A stretch of 37,920 nucleotides of DNA from a virus, in the IMG/VR virus record IMGVR_UViG_3300010371_001396, positions 1 through 37,920 of that record. One strand, 5' to 3'. Shown here piece by piece: positions 3,449 to 29,401 of the stretch. How positions within the stretch are numbered: the first letter of the stretch is position 1; each line of letters begins with the position of its first letter. A program made the position numbers and the translations under genes. The notes beneath the pieces are model-generated. The model was given only the letters and a program-made list of their open reading frames with translations, ran no database searches and was not told where the DNA came from.

Positions 3449-4999
3449 TTAATTAAACATGAAAAAGTTACTGAGGGTGTTTGCCCAGTTTATAGTGTTA
3501 CTTAAAACACCACCTATGCTTCGTATAGTAGCTCCTAACGAGCTATCTATCCATGTGCCGTTAGTGTATGTTATATTTTGCACAGAACCAGTCATAGTTA
3601 AAACAGCTCTTACGCTAGTACTACTCGATTTTATTATTTGATGAGAGCCTGAAGTTCCGGTAACCGTTATAGAATTTGTTACAGTATAAGTATTACCCGC
3701 TTGTAAAACCATCTGAGCGCCTGCGGTTGCAGTCATAACAAATGAGCCAACTGTCCAGCCTGCTGAACCTGCAAATGTTAGGTTATTTGACGTGTACGTC
3801 ATTGTACCTGTTGCATTTAAAGCTGAGTTTAATGTAACAACAGGTGCATTATTTAAAGTTATATTAACGAAAGTTATTGCCGATACATCTAAAGTGCATC
3901 CTTGGTTTATTGTAAATGTAGTGCCAGGCGTTACATTCACTGTTCCTGCAGTATATGTAAAAGTGCCAGAGTTTCTGCTAATATTGCCAATAGTAATAGT
4001 ACCTGATGTGTTTATTATAACGTTTGAATTTATTTGAGATGAACTTGCAACACCTGAACAACTAAATGTGCCCGTACCGTTTAATATTATTGTAGCTGCG
4101 GTTGAAGGCCCTACAATTGAATTACCGGCATTGTTTAAATTACCGCCAACATACACATTGTATACACCCGAAAAAGTACAATTAGCTGTCGTGCCAAAAG
4201 TACAATTACCTAAAACCCATACATCGTTTGTCAATGTTATACTACCGTTAAACGATGCTGTTGGGAATTTAACGGCACTCCCTAAACTTAATGTACAACC
4301 GCCTCCGGTTGTACTACAACCAAATGATAAAGAACTAACATTTACCGTGCCTGATGAATACGCAAAAGTACCCTGTACCATTGTTAACCCATTGCTCATT
4401 GTAAGCGTTCCGCTAACCGAAATAGTAAGGTTAGATTTTAAAAATAAATTGATGCAATTATAGGATGGATTTGCGCCATTGAAAATTATATTAGTTGTAC
4501 CTACAAAGGTGTTTCCGTTTTGACCTGTCAATAACGTGCCTATATAAATATTATTACCATTAAAAGTGTATGTTATACCTCCTGTACCTAAATTTAAAGT
4601 GCCGATATTTAAGTTATCTGCTAAAGTATAAGTAGCTGTTACGGAACACAGAATATAAGGTATAGTTAACCCATTTGTAGTTATAGTTGTAGCGGAACCA
4701 CCTAAAATAAAATAGCCGCTACTTGTTACAATAGTCATACCTGCACTAAATGTCAACACTGTACCGTTAACCGTTAAAATATTGGTGGTTGTTATAGTTC
4801 CTGTATAACCAGTGAAGTCTAAATTAGCGCAAGACAAGCTTGTTGTATTCACGCCAATATTACCGGAATGAGAGTCAAAAAAAACATTATCAACAGAGGT
4901 AGGCACACCTGCTCCACTTGCACCTCCACTTGTAGATGCCCAATTTGTTGATGAGTTCCAATTTCCGTTACCGCCCGCTACTTCGTAATAATTAGCCAT
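3449..4999 (-). CDS. Large beta-rich tail fibre or spike protein
   Basis: The 516-aa protein starts with NYYEVAGGNGNWNSSTNW followed by a Gly/Ser-rich stretch, then a long run of short repeats rich in Thr, Gly, Asn, Val and Ile (for example GTITIGN and GTFTYTAGTVNV). This composition is typical of a beta-helix or beta-solenoid. The C-terminus, about residues 440-516, loses the repeat character and could be a receptor-binding or trimerisation tip. No catalytic motif is recognisable. The start codon overlaps the stop of the upstream fibre gene (TAATG), implying coupled translation. The host-recognition role is inferred from its position between baseplate genes. Confidence 0.7.
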   Translation of the reverse strand: MANYYEVAGGNGNWNSSTNWASTSGGASGAGVPTSVDNVFFDSHSGNIGVNTTSLSCANLDFTGYTGTITTTNILTVNGTVLTFSAGMTIVTSSGYFILGGSATTITTNGLTIPYILCSVTATYTLADNLNIGTLNLGTGGITYTFNGNNIYIGTLLTGQNGNTFVGTTNIIFNGANPSYNCINLFLKSNLTISVSGTLTMSNGLTMVQGTFAYSSGTVNVSSLSFGCSTTGGGCTLSLGSAVKFPTASFNGSITLTNDVWVLGNCTFGTTANCTFSGVYNVYVGGNLNNAGNSIVGPSTAATIILNGTGTFSCSGVASSSQINSNVIINTSGTITIGNISRNSGTFTYTAGTVNVTPGTTFTINQGCTLDVSAITFVNITLNNAPVVTLNSALNATGTMTYTSNNLTFAGSAGWTVGSFVMTATAGAQMVLQAGNTYTVTNSITVTGTSGSHQIIKSSSTSVRAVLTMTGSVQNITYTNGTWIDSSLGATIRSIGGVLSNTINWANTLSNFFMFN

Positions 5000-6465
5000 T
5001 AAAAATTATCTAAAAAAGGTGAAATACAATCCCATTTGCTATCCGCTGCGTTGTACGAAAAACCTATATACATAGTTTTTGATATAGTTGTAGTTGCTGG
5101 CGCAGGTGCGCTTGTGCTAAACCTAAAAATTGAATTAAAAGTTAATGCACGAGCTGTTGCGTTATCCTTAATTCTTATGATAAGTTTCTGACCATCATTA
5201 GGAGTTCCTGTTGCTGTAATTGTATCAGCAGATGCTAACGCAGTAATAGTCCACACATCATAATTATCTGTGTTTATAGAAGTAGCTGTGTTAGTTGCTT
5301 CAGTTCCTACTCGTAGTTTTGTTCGGGAGTTCCAAATACCTGCTGTTATAGTACCAACCGTTGCAATATCTGTACCTACTAATTTTGATGCAGCAATAGA
5401 GCCGCCTAACATTGAGTTAAGAACTTTTCCAGCTCCTATGCTAATTACTCCTGTGCTTATAGTCGCATCTCCACTAAAATAAGTGTTATCTAAAACAAAA
5501 TTATTGCCTGATAAAGTGATACCATTACTACCTGTATAAGTAGTGTTGCTGCCTTTAATGTAAGTTAAAGAAGTAGTCCCTATTGTAATTACAGCATTAT
5601 TAGATAACAACCACATTTGGTCTGCATAAGTACCCTCCTCAATTGTAATTACCATCCCAAGCACACCAGTATTAGAATAATCTCCAGTAGAGCAATCAGT
5701 AGCTCTAGTCATAGCGGAAGCTGCACCATTAAAAACATAAACACCGTTTTGAGTTCCGGTTGTTTGTGCATTTAAAACAACTCTATCACCATTTGATAGT
5801 GTTACACCATCAATAGAAGATGGTGCAGAAGAAACGTTTATGTTAGTATTAGACATAACACGTGCAGCAGCCTTCCAACCACCTATGCCAATCATAAGGT
5901 TGTTTAGTTGGTTTTGTATATTAGATGTTGCTCCACTTAAATAAGAAATCTGTGTAGGCGTAACACCATTTAAGTTTCCGGTCAATGTGCCGCCTGTTAA
6001 TGGCAAATACAAATTAGCAAGAGCAATTAATTGTTGGTATGTTGTAGCTTGTTTACCTGTCGTTGCATCAGCATTTAAAACCAGTGTACCAGTTAAAGTG
6101 CCGCCCGCTAATGGCAAATACATATTGGCAAGAGCAATTAATTGCTGGTATGTTGTAGCTTGTTTACCCGTCGTTGCATCAGCGTTTAAAACAAGCGTTC
6201 CAGTTAAGGTGCCACCCCCTAAAGGTAAATAAGTTCCTCCGGTTAAATATCTTGCGTCGGCATAAGCTTTGTTAATTAACGAAAGTGCACCGAACCCTGC
6301 TGACACATCTGTATTATAATTTAAAACAGCTGTAGCATTATTACTACCGTCCTTTGCTAAATATGGCGCACCGCTTTCGGCACCATAAAATGATATTAGT
6401 TGGTTTAACTTGGCTCTTACCGAGTCGCCTCTTTCTCCGTCTGTTATTATTGATATTGTTGGCAT
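4999..6465 (-). CDS. Tail fibre protein with tandem repeats
   Basis: The 488-aa protein has an N-terminal region resembling fibre attachment domains (residues 1-75), followed by two near-identical 37-aa repeats of the YLPLAGGTLTGTLVLNADAT type and a third, shorter LPLTGGTLTGNL segment. The 'LPLxGGTLTGxL' motif is common in phage tail fibres and usually forms a trimeric shaft. The middle (about 195-300) resembles a fibre segment with VVLNAQTTGTQNGVYVFNG, seen in many phage fibres. The C-terminal about 100 residues probably form a knob. It lies directly after the LysM tail gene and before a second fibre gene. Confidence 0.78.
   Translation of the reverse strand: MPTISIITDGERGDSVRAKLNQLISFYGAESGAPYLAKDGSNNATAVLNYNTDVSAGFGALSLINKAYADARYLTGGTYLPLGGGTLTGTLVLNADATTGKQATTYQQLIALANMYLPLAGGTLTGTLVLNADATTGKQATTYQQLIALANLYLPLTGGTLTGNLNGVTPTQISYLSGATSNIQNQLNNLMIGIGGWKAAARVMSNTNINVSSAPSSIDGVTLSNGDRVVLNAQTTGTQNGVYVFNGAASAMTRATDCSTGDYSNTGVLGMVITIEEGTYADQMWLLSNNAVITIGTTSLTYIKGSNTTYTGSNGITLSGNNFVLDNTYFSGDATISTGVISIGAGKVLNSMLGGSIAASKLVGTDIATVGTITAGIWNSRTKLRVGTEATNTATSINTDNYDVWTITALASADTITATGTPNDGQKLIIRIKDNATARALTFNSIFRFSTSAPAPATTTISKTMYIGFSYNAADSKWDCISPFLDNF
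5987..6208 (-). repeat. Two 111-bp tandem direct repeats in the fibre gene
   Basis: Copies at 5987-6097 and 6098-6208 are each 111 bp (37 codons) and nearly identical, with a truncated third copy at about 6209-6233. The unit is in frame, so unequal recombination would add or remove whole 37-aa shaft units without breaking the gene. Most differences between copies are single bases, which points to a recent duplication. Confidence 0.85.
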
Positions 6466-25424: not shown

Positions 25425-25847
25425 TTATAGTTTTGTATGAATATCTATTTCAAGTTTAGCGAGGTTAATTAGTGTCTGTGCCGACTTTGAAATTTGTTGT
25501 GCCTGAGGCACATAATCCCGGCTTGCCACAACTTTATCCATACTATCCAATAAAACATCCCTTATTTTCTCTAAAGTCTGATTAGGCGCAATTCTCGACC
25601 TTGATACCATTTGTTTTTCTGGCGTATTTGCAACAGCAACAATATCATTCCCCTTAACTTCAACTTCTTTATACTCCCGCATAAATACGTTTACATTATA
25701 AATAGTTGTTTCAAGCCAATCCTTGTCTGTGGCAACAAGTATAGTTTCTCCGGTTTCTTTAAAGCTCAAAAATTTATAAATTTCTTCGCTCGTTCTGTGC
25801 TGATAAGTTTTACCCATCATAGCACTTAATGCTTTAGTTCTGCTCAT
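25425..25847 (-). CDS. Hypothetical protein, conserved-looking phage type
   Basis: The 140-aa protein is not recognised. It begins with a basic segment (MSRTKALSAMMGKTYQHRTSEEIYKFLSF), continues with an alpha/beta part (TILVATDKDWLETTIYNVN) and ends in two helices (LEKIRDVLLDSMDKVV and AQTLINLAKLEIDI). Its start overlaps the stop of the HNH gene (ATGA), so the two are co-translated. No signal or membrane segment is visible. Confidence 0.6.
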   Translation of the reverse strand: MSRTKALSAMMGKTYQHRTSEEIYKFLSFKETGETILVATDKDWLETTIYNVNVFMREYKEVEVKGNDIVAVANTPEKQMVSRSRIAPNQTLEKIRDVLLDSMDKVVASRDYVPQAQQISKSAQTLINLAKLEIDIHTKL

Positions 25848-26467
25848 AATTTTTCATTTGTTTTTTTAGTTATTGTTCTGTTTAATTTATGCACTAGACG
25901 TATTGTTGATTTTAGCTCGGGCGAGTATCTGTGAATTGTGTTTTTACTCATGTGTTGCGACCTGTTTATTAATTCAAGATTACTTACTTCGCAATTCATT
26001 GTGTTGCCATCTTTAAAGCGTATAATCATGCCGGGTGGTATTTCCCCTTTTTCCTTTTCCCAATTGTATCTGTGCAATGGAAGCCATTTGCTTAAAGATG
26101 TTCGGATGAACTGATACTTAACACCTCTTTTATCAGGCCGGATAGATATTACTCCATTTGCTTTTGTATTGTGGGGCAAGTTCCCTTTTTTAAACCGTGT
26201 TTTCTTTGTTCTTGCTATGGCTTTTTTGTCCATGTACTCCGATTGCTTTCTTCCTTTATTAAAGGAAATATGACCCTCTCTAAATCTACCTATACTCGAA
26301 CGTACTTCTCGTATGGAATCAGGAAGTTTTAATCCTAATTTAAAAAGTCTGTTTTTAATAGAGCTTAAAGTGGTATTTAACTCATTTGCCAGCTCCACAT
26401 ATGGTTTAGTGCAAATGTTTTTACGTAAGTAATTATCCTCTTTTTTAGTCCAAATTTTACGGGGCAT
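25844..26467 (-). CDS. HNH endonuclease with N-terminal Myb/SANT-like DNA-binding domain
   Basis: The 207-aa protein begins with a SANT/Myb-like helical domain (IWTKKEDNYLRKNI ... ELANELNTTLSSIKNRLFKLG, residues 4-45). The C-terminal part has LPLHRYNWEKEKGEIPPGM (about 131-149) and an Asn-rich DGNTMNCEVSNLELI, the HNH_3-type arrangement with His at 134 and conserved Asn residues. Such proteins are usually free-standing homing or mobility endonucleases. It sits between a MazG-like gene and a hypothetical gene in the same operon as the DGR, with a 1-base gap and a 4-base overlap, so it is integrated in the transcript instead of being an obvious recent insertion. Confidence 0.8.
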   Translation of the reverse strand: MPRKIWTKKEDNYLRKNICTKPYVELANELNTTLSSIKNRLFKLGLKLPDSIREVRSSIGRFREGHISFNKGRKQSEYMDKKAIARTKKTRFKKGNLPHNTKANGVISIRPDKRGVKYQFIRTSLSKWLPLHRYNWEKEKGEIPPGMIIRFKDGNTMNCEVSNLELINRSQHMSKNTIHRYSPELKSTIRLVHKLNRTITKKTNEKL

Positions 26468-26468
26468 A

Positions 26469-26954
26469 CTAGTAAATTTTAAGTTTTATTCTATCAGCCA
26501 ATCTTGCAAGCTTTCTATTTTCAGATAAAGCAATAGCCTCCTTATCAAGCATATTCTCTAATTGCGCAAGCATTATTTTCACGTCGGCAACTTCTCCACA
26601 CAAGCTAAAGTAAGCAAGTGAATATTTAGTTCCATTGTGCAAGTCCTTATTAGCGTGCATTATTTCCCTTTCCATTACACCCCCTAAACGTTTAAGTTTA
26701 TTAATACTTTGCATAAGCTCTCCAATCTCTTCGTGCAGCATATCAATTTGTTTAGGGCAACCGTGTAAAGCAACAGCAGCTTGTAAAATTTTATCCCTGT
26801 TATTGATTGCGGCAATTATTTTAACCTGCTCGGTTTGTTTTTTATCAACTTCTCGCTTATCAATTTTTGTTTTGTGCTCATAACCTAAACTAAACCCTAT
26901 AATTAATGCAAAAAACATTAACCAAAATGCGTATAAAAATATTTCGTATCCCAT
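26469..26954 (-). CDS. Membrane-anchored MazG-like nucleotide pyrophosphohydrolase
   Basis: The 161-aa protein has one N-terminal transmembrane helix (FLYAFWLMFFALIIGFSLGY, residues 6-25), a charged linker, and then a MazG-like all-alpha domain. The metal-binding motif EExxE appears as E75-E76-IG-E79 and the second motif ExxD as E121-VA-D124, in CGEVADVKIML. This family hydrolyses (d)NTPs to monophosphates and pyrophosphate. The membrane anchor is unusual. It lies in the DGR-containing operon, between the 107-aa gene and the HNH gene. Confidence 0.75.
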   Translation of the reverse strand: MGYEIFLYAFWLMFFALIIGFSLGYEHKTKIDKREVDKKQTEQVKIIAAINNRDKILQAAVALHGCPKQIDMLHEEIGELMQSINKLKRLGGVMEREIMHANKDLHNGTKYSLAYFSLCGEVADVKIMLAQLENMLDKEAIALSENRKLARLADRIKLKIY

Positions 26955-26968
26955 TGTTTTTTTTGTTT

Positions 26969-27292
26969 TTAAGTGAATTTAAATCCCTTGTTATCTTCTT
27001 TTATAGTGGTTTCAAATGGTAAATTTTCTTCCGGTACTTGGCTTATTTGCTCTCTAAGCAACATGGAGTTAGTCCAAAGTATGTGCTGCTTACCACTATA
27101 TATAAGCTGCATTGTTAGCCGTTTACCATCTCCCTTATCCTTAAAGTTAGACGGCTCAACTTTATACTTCTGTACTATAATTGGTCTGTCAAGCACTTTG
27201 TTTATGCTAATCTTATCGCCCGAAAAGGTTAAGTTTTTAGGCTCTTTAATCCCCATATCACTAAATTTTTTTACCGCAGGTTTTTCTTCCAT
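26969..27292 (-). CDS. 107-aa protein overlapping the DGR reverse transcriptase gene
   Basis: The protein has no family I can name with confidence. A central beta-rich part contains KISINKVLDRPIIVQKYKV (residues 28-46), KRLTMQLIYSGKQHILW (about 58-74) and then a helix MLLREQISQ, which would fit a small OB-like fold. The start codon lies 32 bases inside the RT gene, so translation is probably coupled. The tight link makes it a candidate DGR accessory protein or a single-strand nucleic-acid binding protein; this is inference. It does not resemble the helical-bundle Avd. Confidence 0.65.
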   Translation of the reverse strand: MEEKPAVKKFSDMGIKEPKNLTFSGDKISINKVLDRPIIVQKYKVEPSNFKDKGDGKRLTMQLIYSGKQHILWTNSMLLREQISQVPEENLPFETTIKEDNKGFKFT

Positions 27293-28238
27293 ATAAAAGT
27301 TTATTAATTAATGTTTTTGTATTAGCATGCTTTGCCTGCCCCAAATACGATGCAATAGTTGAAGCAGGTTTATTTCTTGCAATGGCACGTGCCATTTTTT
27401 GTTTGTTCCTTTTTCTTAAAAGCACATGAGTATGAAAATATTTATAACCCAACACATCTACTCCTCTGTCTTCAACCTTAAATACTTGATAATTGCCTTT
27501 AAGCTCTAAGTTTAAATTATCTTTTAAATAGCTTTTAATCTCATGTAAAAGTGCGTGCAGCTCTTCTTTGGTAGCTCCAAATAATATTAAATCATCTGCA
27601 TATCTAAAATAGTATCTGCGGCGTTTTACCTCCTTAATCCAATGGTCAAATGGTGTTAAGTAAAAGTTTGCTAAGTACTGGCTTAGATAGTTACCAATAG
27701 GCAATCCGGGTGCGCTGTCAATTATCTCATCCAAAAACCACAACAGGTCTTTATCTTTAAATTTACGGCGCAAAAGCTGTTTTAGTATAGCGTGGTCAAC
27801 ATTCGGGTAAAACTTCTTTATATCCAGTTGCAGGCAATAAGTTGTGCCCTCCACATCAAGCAATGCTTTTTTTATTGCCCGGTGTGCAGCATGTACGCCT
27901 CGCTTTTTTATGCAACTGTAAGTATCAGCTGTAAATGCCGATATAAAAACAGGCTCCAAAACATTCATAATTGCATGGTGTGCTATCCTGTCCGGAAAGA
28001 AGGGCAATCTGTAAACCTCACGTTCTTTTGGCTCATACACTTTAAAAGTGGTGTATTTGGATGTCTTAAAAGTTTTGGTTATCAAAAGCCTTTGTAGCTC
28101 TTGGAGGTTTAACTCTCTTTGTTGCAAATGTAATTTAACGCCAAATTGTTTACGCTTGCCTCGTATGGCTTTCGTTTCTGCTTGCAACAGGTTTTCTGTT
28201 GAGCATATTTGTTGGTATAGGTTATTTAACCTTTTCAT
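27261..28238 (-). CDS. DGR reverse transcriptase
   Basis: The 325-aa protein copies the TR transcript into adenine-mutated cDNA. RT motifs are visible in order: LQLDIKKFYPNV (catalytic Asp139), GLPIGNYLSQYLANFYL (178-194, the IGxxxSQ form found in DGR-type RTs in place of the QGxxxSP of group II intron RTs), FRYADDLILFG (211-221, catalytic YADD), and a later GVDVLGYKYF (259-268). There is no maturase, RNase H or integrase domain, and the length is typical of DGR RTs. It sits 116 bases downstream of the TR on the same strand, and downstream of two VR-bearing target genes. Confidence 0.95.
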   Translation of the reverse strand: MKRLNNLYQQICSTENLLQAETKAIRGKRKQFGVKLHLQQRELNLQELQRLLITKTFKTSKYTTFKVYEPKEREVYRLPFFPDRIAHHAIMNVLEPVFISAFTADTYSCIKKRGVHAAHRAIKKALLDVEGTTYCLQLDIKKFYPNVDHAILKQLLRRKFKDKDLLWFLDEIIDSAPGLPIGNYLSQYLANFYLTPFDHWIKEVKRRRYYFRYADDLILFGATKEELHALLHEIKSYLKDNLNLELKGNYQVFKVEDRGVDVLGYKYFHTHVLLRKRNKQKMARAIARNKPASTIASYLGQAKHANTKTLINKLLYGRKTCGKKI

Positions 28239-28353
28239 GTGCCTTTGCTTGTAAGGTCTTCTTCGCTTTCGCTACCAAAGCCCTTGTAAGTTTTAGTTCT
28301 TTTTTTGCTATGTGAGCAAGGTTTGCATTGTGATTTTAAAATAGTCTCGCTTA

Positions 28354-28418
28354 GGTGCGAGCTGACATTCGAATTCGAGTTCCAGTTGTCGTAGTTCGTA
28401 TCCGAGAAGCGACCGCTC
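28354..28418 (-). repeat. DGR template repeat (TR)
   Basis: This 65-bp non-coding copy lies between the first target gene and the RT. On the coding strand its virtual peptide contains TNYDNWNSNSNVS with repeated AAC and AAT codons, the codons most freely diversified by A mutagenesis without creating stops. Compared with VR1 and VR2, all 48 positions that are not A (coding strand) are identical. Of its 17 A residues, 13 are changed in at least one VR. Similarity stops sharply at both ends. Confidence 0.95.
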
Positions 28419-28465
28419 GAAATCCAACACTCAAGTCAGCTCTCCAATGCACAACCTGTTTTGGT

Positions 28466-28894
28466 TTAACCCAAATGATGCATCAAATGATATTTTTCTG
28501 CATGTTCTTGAAAAAATGCAACCTTCTCAGTCGTATCAAACATAAGGCGCGAGCCGACAAACGAATCCGAGTACCAGCTGCCGTAGCCCGTATCCGAGAA
28601 GCGACCGCCCCTTGGTTTGTCCGCTGTGGGTGCAATTGCAAACGCCGCAAAAGGTTTCCAAGTTCCGTCTGTAAAGTCAGGCTCCCATACCGTGCCATCT
28701 TCGTTAGTGTTTATAGCTTTTGCCCATACATGCAAAACGTAATCACTCTCGGCACGTGGTCTGTACCATTCCGGGTATTGGTCAAAACTTGGTAATTTAC
28801 TAAAGTCTTCGCCCGCTCTTTTAAATGCCGCTTCCGGTGTTGTTAGGTCTTCGTAATACAACTTTTTTTCTACTTCTTTTTTTGTTTTTGCCAT
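28466..28894 (-). CDS. DGR target protein 1 (C-type lectin-like variable domain)
   Basis: The 142-aa protein carries VR1 at residues about 95-117 near its C-terminus, as DGR targets do. The surrounding Trp- and Gly-rich sequence (WAKAINTNEDGTVWEPDF, then WKPFAAFAI, then RGGRFSDTGYGSWYSDSFVG) is the pattern of the CLec-type ligand-binding fold. Diversified residues are Gly96, Asp101, Gly103, Gly105, Ser106, Tyr108, Asp110, Phe112, Gly114 and Arg116. After the VR, VGSRLMF and a 20-residue helix follow. There is no signal peptide or membrane segment, and no tail-fibre domain. The N-terminal 30 residues are helical and basic. The ligand is unknown. Confidence 0.9.
   Translation of the reverse strand: MAKTKKEVEKKLYYEDLTTPEAAFKRAGEDFSKLPSFDQYPEWYRPRAESDYVLHVWAKAINTNEDGTVWEPDFTDGTWKPFAAFAIAPTADKPRGGRFSDTGYGSWYSDSFVGSRLMFDTTEKVAFFQEHAEKYHLMHHLG
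28546..28610 (-). repeat. DGR variable repeat VR1
   Basis: This 65-bp copy inside target gene 1 differs from the TR at 11 positions, each of them A on the coding strand in the TR: (+ strand view) 5 of the T residues became C at isolated sites, others became A or C. No non-A position differs. Identity ends at the same base on both sides as for VR2, except two more matching bases at the 3' side. Confidence 0.93.
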
Positions 28895-28912
28895 CTTGCT
28901 TTTTATTATTGG

Positions 28913-29401
28913 TTATTTAATTACTTTTTTGTGGGCCCATCCTTCAAATACTTTCGGGAATTTTGCAACCGCATCCAAGGCGTGTGCAGATCTTAAAAAT
29001 GTTTGGCGCGAGCCGACAAGCGAATGCGAGGACCAGTTGCCGTAGCGCGTACCCGAGAAGCGACCGCCCCGCATATCATAATACACATTGTATTTATCGA
29101 ATTTGCCGTTATCCCAATCCGGCTCTTTACCTTCATTATAAGCTTCAACAATAAGGCATATAAGCATACTGTTTTTAGCTCCTAACAAACGCAGGTTATC
29201 GCCTTCGTAGTTAATAATGTCAAGCACTTCTTTTTCAGGCTTTGTTAATTCAATAATATCCTCAATCGAATTAATTCGGTCTTTAACATCCGTGCTAAAT
29301 AGTTTCGGTAACAGTTTAGCTAAAAAGCTTTTGTTACTTGCATCGCCTTCGTTGTAGGCTTTTTTTACGTCGTCTTCAAACAACTCTACTGTTTTACTCA
29401 T
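28913..29401 (-). CDS. DGR target protein 2 (C-type lectin-like variable domain)
   Basis: The 162-aa protein has a unique helical N-terminus (residues 1-75, FEDDVKKAYNEGDASNKSF) followed by a DGR-type C-terminal domain (about 78-155). VR2 spans residues about 111-132: RGGRFSGTRYGNWSSHSLVG. After it, SRQTFLRS and a helix ALDAVAKFPKVFEGW close the fold, as in many Bacteroidota DGR targets where GSR-x-x-F precedes a helical end. The N-terminus is unrelated to target 1, so the two genes share only the lectin-like module. The spacing to target 1 is 18 bases. Neither protein has obvious tail attachment sequence. Confidence 0.9.
   Translation of the reverse strand: MSKTVELFEDDVKKAYNEGDASNKSFLAKLLPKLFSTDVKDRINSIEDIIELTKPEKEVLDIINYEGDNLRLLGAKNSMLICLIVEAYNEGKEPDWDNGKFDKYNVYYDMRGGRFSGTRYGNWSSHSLVGSRQTFLRSAHALDAVAKFPKVFEGWAHKKVIK
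29005..29069 (-). repeat. DGR variable repeat VR2
   Basis: This 65-bp copy in target gene 2 differs from the TR at 12 positions, all A on the coding strand in the TR, and from VR1 at 7 positions. Six sites differ between the two VRs in the base installed or in being changed at all, so the two copies were diversified independently. Confidence 0.93.

Follow-up and report, generated by a model that had tools for sequence, protein, structure and literature searches.

The question raised by this locus is whether a short repeat next to a reverse transcriptase (RT) gene and two imperfect copies of it form a working diversity-generating retroelement (DGR) and, if so, of what kind. The window, by which we mean the whole stretch of DNA analyzed, is the complete virus record IMGVR_UViG_3300010371_001396 (37,920 bp). 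It comes from a Mu-like phage, with a MuA that matches phrog_310 (E 6.6e-28) and is 39% identical to that of Elizabethkingia phage TCUEAP3, a MuB ATPase that matches phrog_296 (E 9e-34), and a set of contractile-tail genes that includes the sheath and the tape measure. The cassette is found downstream of the MuA and MuB genes, within the early/replication region and apart from the tail genes, and primase, helicase or methyltransferase genes adjoin it in most of the 10 relatives inspected. A MazG-like pyrophosphohydrolase domain (phrog_2245), preceded by an N-terminal hydrophobic segment, is encoded immediately downstream of the DGR (26469-26954), and an HNH endonuclease gene is found within a few kilobases (25844-26467). 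HNH endonuclease genes also occur near the DGR, on either side, in ca. 10 relatives (e.g., L019, L020, L028, and L087).

The template repeat (TR; 28354..28418) aligned without gaps over 65 bp with VR1 (28546..28610) and VR2 (29005..29069), all three on the - strand, as are the other parts of the cassette described below. The TR holds 17 adenines, 11 of them changed in VR1 and 12 in VR2, and together the two VRs define 13 variable positions, each of them an adenine in the TR, while none of the 48 non-A positions differed in either VR. The counts given in the original prediction (a 65-bp TR, 13 variable positions, 11 and 12 changes) were thus reproduced, and so was the identity of the three copies at the 48 non-A positions. 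The probability of all differences landing on adenines is 1.4e-8 for VR1 and 1.5e-9 for VR2. An independent scan near the RT, in which mismatches were accepted only where the TR has an A, returned exactly the pairs TR-VR1 and TR-VR2 on the - strand and zero pairs on the + strand. The scan for additional VRs covered 21.3-34.2 kb of the window; outside this range, at 4999-6465, there is a structural protein with internal direct repeats (YLPLxGGTLTGTLVLNADATTGKQATTYQQLIALAN). Tandem paralogous targets are the kind of setting in which gene conversion or recombination could create such copies with no retroelement involved, but the confinement of the changes to the adenines of one copy (p ~1e-8), the adjacent DGR RT, and the recurrence of the same pattern in ca. 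100 relatives make this origin scarcely conceivable.

The RT gene (27261..28238) encodes 325 aa with the motifs LPIGNYLSQ and YADD. Its product matches phrog_1423 (E 2e-114), is 34% identical from end to end to the Brt of BPP-1, and has as its best PDB relative the reverse transcriptase entry 8ub7, which we take to be the Bordetella DGR complex. Judging from these sequence comparisons, it belongs to the DGR RT lineage and has intact motifs, an assignment that is supported by the RT tree as well. An intact RT gene had been noted downstream of the TR and was confirmed there, with the ORF starting at 28238 and the distance amounting to 115 nt instead of the 116 given earlier. Targets, TR, a 115-nt spacer, and RT follow one another in the DGR arrangement. 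One TR, two tandem targets whose VRs depart from it at adenines alone, and an RT of the DGR lineage are therefore all present, and the window cassette is a real DGR. DGR-type adenine mutagenesis of two targets, as originally proposed, is strongly supported by the DGR-family RT and by nearly identical relatives that differ only at VR adenines.

To place the cassette among its relatives, RT homologs were collected from viral contigs (387 confirmed, 80 kept) and from genomes (177 confirmed, 80 kept). Close relatives of the RT are mostly found in (pro)phages of Bacteroidota, and ca. 115 of them share one layout, with two or three tandem small targets, the TR, the RT, and then a gene of ca. 100 aa overlapping the end of the RT. 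An automatic TR/VR search recovered this layout in almost every close relative; in the viral set, it found 51 loci with two and 12 with three tandem target genes, followed by the TR, a spacer of ca. 105 nt, and the RT. Outside Bacteroidota, an Ignavibacteriales MAG (L110) carries a DGR RT of the window type, together with the spacer RNA and the small gene (g107, see below). Across 196 TR-VR pairs of the family, 70% of the TR adenines differ compared to 0.3% of the other positions, the latter figure being partly a product of construction because the pairs were preselected for few non-A mismatches.

Not every variable adenine behaves alike. When TR and VR positions of the relatives were counted from a conserved GTC anchor, the zone from -36 to -2 (28368..28402 in the window TR) appeared truly diversified, with all four bases found in the VRs. 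On both sides of it, the change from A in the TR to G in the VR is nearly fixed, namely in 118/119 cases at position +3 and 117/117 at +10, and in the 5' flank in 61/64 at -45, 28/31 at -51, and 42/44 at -52 (131/139 in total). Positions 28356, 28363, and 28417 of the window (TR indices 3, 57, and 64) belong to this near-fixed class, so that 10 of the 13 variable positions are truly diversified. The description of the diversification as strict holds for these ca. 10 positions but not for the three that are near-fixed A/G across relatives. The near-fixed 3' pair encodes the nearly invariant G and R of a VGSR motif and lies within the last 10 bases of the TR (28354..28363), where the TR reads AGCTCGCACC and both VRs read GGCTCGCGCC. 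From this sequence pattern, we infer that GGCTCGCGCC in the VRs and AGCTCGCACC in the TR may play roles like those of IMH and IMH*, respectively. A hairpin or cruciform of the BPP-1 type was not found just 3' of the VRs, where the longest stem averaged 4.35 compared to 4.30 in control stretches.

Comparison of nearly identical loci indicated that the family is active in nature, since they differ almost only at VR adenines. Thus, L048 and L049 differ at 13/57 VR adenines and 0/2343 other positions, L044 and L046 at 11/36 VR adenines and nowhere else, and L049 and L052 at 12/38 VR adenines with one additional difference. By analogy, the DGR of the window phage is probably active too. The opposite case, a decayed cassette whose VR differences are fossils, could account for the fact that VR1 and VR2 show identical new bases at 7 of the 10 doubly changed positions. 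However, three of these seven bases fall on near-fixed A/G positions, the close relatives are active, and in the window itself the RT, g107, and both target genes are open and the RNA helices (see below) are intact, all of which makes decay very unlikely.

The two target genes encode 142 aa (target 1, 28466..28894, containing VR1) and 162 aa (target 2, 28913..29401, containing VR2). They are tandem paralogs of a single small-protein family (median length, 138 aa; mostly 120-165 aa). Of 110 members, 104 match phrog_11581 (function unknown); target 2, which belongs to family A1, does so with an E value of 0.0011. Target 1, as modeled by AlphaFold2 (AF2; pLDDT 85.6), is helical in its N-terminal part, and its VR zone is weakly modeled (pLDDT 59-66). 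The lectin-like variable domains of the original prediction found no backing in these proteins: Foldseek gave no fold match of the target in the PDB, the target profile showed no similarity to Mtd, and Pfam, apart from a single stray match, gave nothing across the 110 members of the family. No transmembrane segments were detected in any of the 110 targets. Target homologs without a DGR directly beside them are found in Bacteroides phage BT-TP2, where the unannotated orphan gene is located at the end of the record (L163), away from the RT, and in LoVEphage, whose gene 79 has methyltransferase and resolvase genes nearby.

The conventional interpretation would be an ordinary phage DGR of the kind known from BPP-1 and hankyphage p00, in which receptor-binding tail proteins of the C-type-lectin class are diversified, given that tail proteins with a C-Lec fold make up the majority of phage DGR targets (PMC8144416). 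The VR codons are indeed derived from AAC/AAT, as the original prediction had it, and the poorly modeled VR zone leaves room for a reduced C-Lec fold. Yet the small size of the targets, the failure to match Pfam, PDB folds, or the Mtd profile, the placement of the cassettes among transposition and replication genes, and the existence of orphan homologs away from any DGR, such as LoVEphage gene 79, argue against it, and we consider this interpretation unlikely, if still deserving some weight. Our preferred but unproven and weaker reading is that the targets may be intracellular or early-expressed binding proteins rather than tail tips, because they have no membrane segments and no recognized fold and because their neighbors are transposition, primase, and helicase genes throughout the family.

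Three features had no place in the original prediction, namely an accessory-like gene overlapping the RT, a structured TR RNA, and the lack of Avd. The gene, here called g107 (26969..27292), overlaps the 3' end of the RT gene by 32 nt and encodes a candidate DGR accessory protein that is kept in the relatives. With tblastn, a homolog was located at the corresponding position of 113 of the 116 loci, to which a profile search added L067 and L116, and within 4.5 kb only the RT, the targets, and g107 are conserved in more than half of the 116 loci. In three cases (L076, L102, and phage BT-TP2), g107 is fused to the RT. The BT-TP2 RT is annotated as gp45 (L163, 2011-3381), and its g107-like C-terminal domain corresponds to residues 352-441 of the open frame. 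Across 395 Bacteroidota genomes, the g107 profile gave five matches, all five adjoining a DGR RT, and an archaeal virus, Methanogenium, and an alphaproteobacterial MAG also have g107 next to their RTs. In L119, L122, and L115 it is located upstream of the RT, still inside the cassette.

The distribution of g107 excludes that of Avd. Among 175 RT loci, 129 had g107, 34 had Avd, 12 had neither, and none had both; the first number is inflated because the search started from the RT of the window, which does not affect the zero co-occurrence. The Avd-type RTs form one well-supported clade of the RT tree, with no g107 inside. bAvd (PF22296) was absent from the whole window phage and from 24 relatives, in a search that, run identically, detects bAvd beside other (Avd-type) DGR RTs. 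According to the literature, Avd is encoded by most but not all DGRs, so its absence does not disqualify the window cassette as a DGR. Could g107 instead be an unrelated early gene that hitchhikes 3' of the RT by translational coupling? The overlap of the two genes would fit, and their association is drawn from sequence. However, g107 stays by the RT while all other neighbors turn over, at least three RT-g107 fusions are known, the gene can move upstream and remain within the cassette, and it accompanies DGR RTs across phyla and domains without ever co-occurring with Avd. We therefore give the hitchhiking scenario little weight. Its position beside the RT, the RT fusions, and its exclusion from Avd make it very likely that g107 serves as a DGR accessory protein instead of Avd.

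As to what kind of protein g107 is, its AF2 model (pLDDT 86.6) has an OB-like topology, the order of elements fitting b1-b2-b3-a-b4-b5, and on this predicted topology we consider it OB-like. The best Foldseek match was not significant (E 0.09), with RPA and HIN folds among the weak matches. g107 had no Pfam assignment, no significant relative by sequence in the PDB, and no remote homology to Avd. The earlier survey that proposed accessory genes for DGRs is reportedly that of Wu et al. 2018 (NAR). One accessory protein proposed in an earlier DGR survey has no Pfam or CDD assignment (PMC10053308), and g107 may be the Pfam-less protein of Wu et al.

The RNA around the TR was compared in an alignment of 82 sequences that extends from about the stop of target 1 to the start of the RT. 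A long-range stem, P1, encloses the TR, with its consensus GGUU-G-UGyrnUG upstream of the TR pairing with CAnyGCA-AACC downstream. In the window, the 5' strand (GGUU-G-UGCAUUG, 28445..28456) lies between the target 1 stop and the TR, and the 3' strand is CAAUGCAAACC (28320..28330); 9 of its 11 pairs are double-changed. The TR-RT spacer RNA contains two further hairpins, P3 (28305..28319, 3/4 pairs double-changed) and P4 (28254..28284, 8/8 pairs), the latter with an invariant GUA/GAA internal loop that is sarcin-ricin-like by sequence. Overall, 96.3% of the cells of P1, P3, and P4 are paired and 20 of the 23 pairs have double changes, with 362 double-changed cells observed versus 86 in shuffles, while sliding the alignment by one to three columns reduced pairing to 33-45%. 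Comparison of the relatives thus shows, at the level of covariation, that the RNA around the TR would fold into a conserved structure. A candidate stem P2, in which GAGCUGAC would pair over 8 bp in the window with GUCAGCUC at the 3' end of the TR, was rejected, as the true partners gave 5.71 versus 5.61 +/- 0.12 for swapped ones.

Rfam gave no match at the gathering threshold in 20 relatives, and a sub-threshold match to RT-17 (E 0.21) was found in the window spacer. The spacer covariance model also matched directly upstream of RTs in rumen Bacteroidales, in a crAss-like phage, and in phages Perkons and LBR48, but not at BPP-1 or at the typical Avd-type loci searched. Since a similar spacer RNA was present at the RTs of L172, L174, L176, and L118, which have no detectable g107, the RNA class is somewhat wider than g107. 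One of these loci (L172) belongs to the crAss-like phage cr52_1, where the annotated tail protein (1495-2736) next to the DGR RT is interrupted by two in-frame stops when read with table 11, which suggests that this phage uses stop-codon reassignment.

The family also allowed a look at the context of the mutations. At second codon positions of the family TRs (L002-L116), A changed to C in 1.7% of AAC compared to 19.8% of AAU codons; when matched by position, the odds ratio was 0.16 (0.06-0.31 on bootstrapping of loci). The two rates differ even though NCC and NCU are synonymous. In BPP-1, G misincorporation is 26.8% at NAC and 2.5% at NAT (PMC12875486). The context bias would then be opposite to that of BPP-1, which we regard as no more than a lead, because VRs sampled from nature are also shaped by selection and common descent.

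Putting these elements together, we propose that the RT and the small OB-like protein g107, standing in for the Avd of BPP-1, would bind the P1/P3/P4 RNA. The cDNA would be primed next to the TR 3' end, adenines would be miscopied, and the cDNA would replace VR1 or VR2 next to the IMH-like GGCTCGCGCC, distinct from the TR copy by its fixed A/G changes. As a whole, an intact and probably functional DGR that works in this way in the early/replication region of a Mu-like contractile-tail phage of Bacteroidota is an explanation in which we have considerable confidence. The broader proposal is more tentative, with prospects somewhat short of even, namely that this is a second mechanistic type of DGR, with an RT and an OB-like non-Avd accessory protein, its own class of TR-enclosing RNA, a context preference opposite to that of BPP-1, and tandem intracellular early targets in Bacteroidota phages.

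The mechanism of DGRs is known from the RT-Avd-RNA complex of BPP-1. A widespread lineage that lacks Avd but has a fixed small partner of its own and a distinct, covariation-supported template RNA offers an independent system in which to ask how adenines are miscopied, and possibly a further tool for targeted mutagenesis. Should the targets prove to be intracellular, they would also depart from the usual view of phage DGRs as serving host attachment. Multi-target DGRs (PMC10743442) and DGRs of Mu-like phages (PMC6199706) are already known. In the literature searched, this variant type has not been described as a unit, and what appears to be new is that g107/Avd exclusion, RT fusions, a covariation-supported RNA enclosing the TR, and tandem small targets in the early region occur together.

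Compared with known systems, the window cassette shares with the BPP-1 DGR (mtd-avd-TR-brt) the order of VR gene, TR, spacer, and RT, an RT 34% identical over its full length, TR/VR differences restricted to A in the mutable part (verified in L177), and a structured TR-RT spacer (PMC12875486). Unlike BPP-1, it has no Avd and instead a nonhomologous small gene downstream of the RT, and its type of spacer RNA gives no model match there. BPP-1 diversifies one tail protein, in contrast to the two small early-region targets of the window, it has a post-VR hairpin where none was found here, and its TR-VR differences at the 3' end are mostly non-A, whereas those of the window are A/G. The hankyphage p00 (PMC6199706), a Bacteroides prophage, is likewise a Mu-like phage of Bacteroidota with a DGR. 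However, its single VR is at the C terminus of a C-Lec protein of >2,000 residues, it has an Avd-like small ORF, and its MuA is only ca. 22% identical to that of the window. The tentaclin DGRs nd4 and nd12 (PMC10743442) also use one TR to feed two target genes, but these are two dissimilar C-Lec proteins accompanied by an annotated AVD, whereas the window has tandem paralogs of one small family and no Avd.
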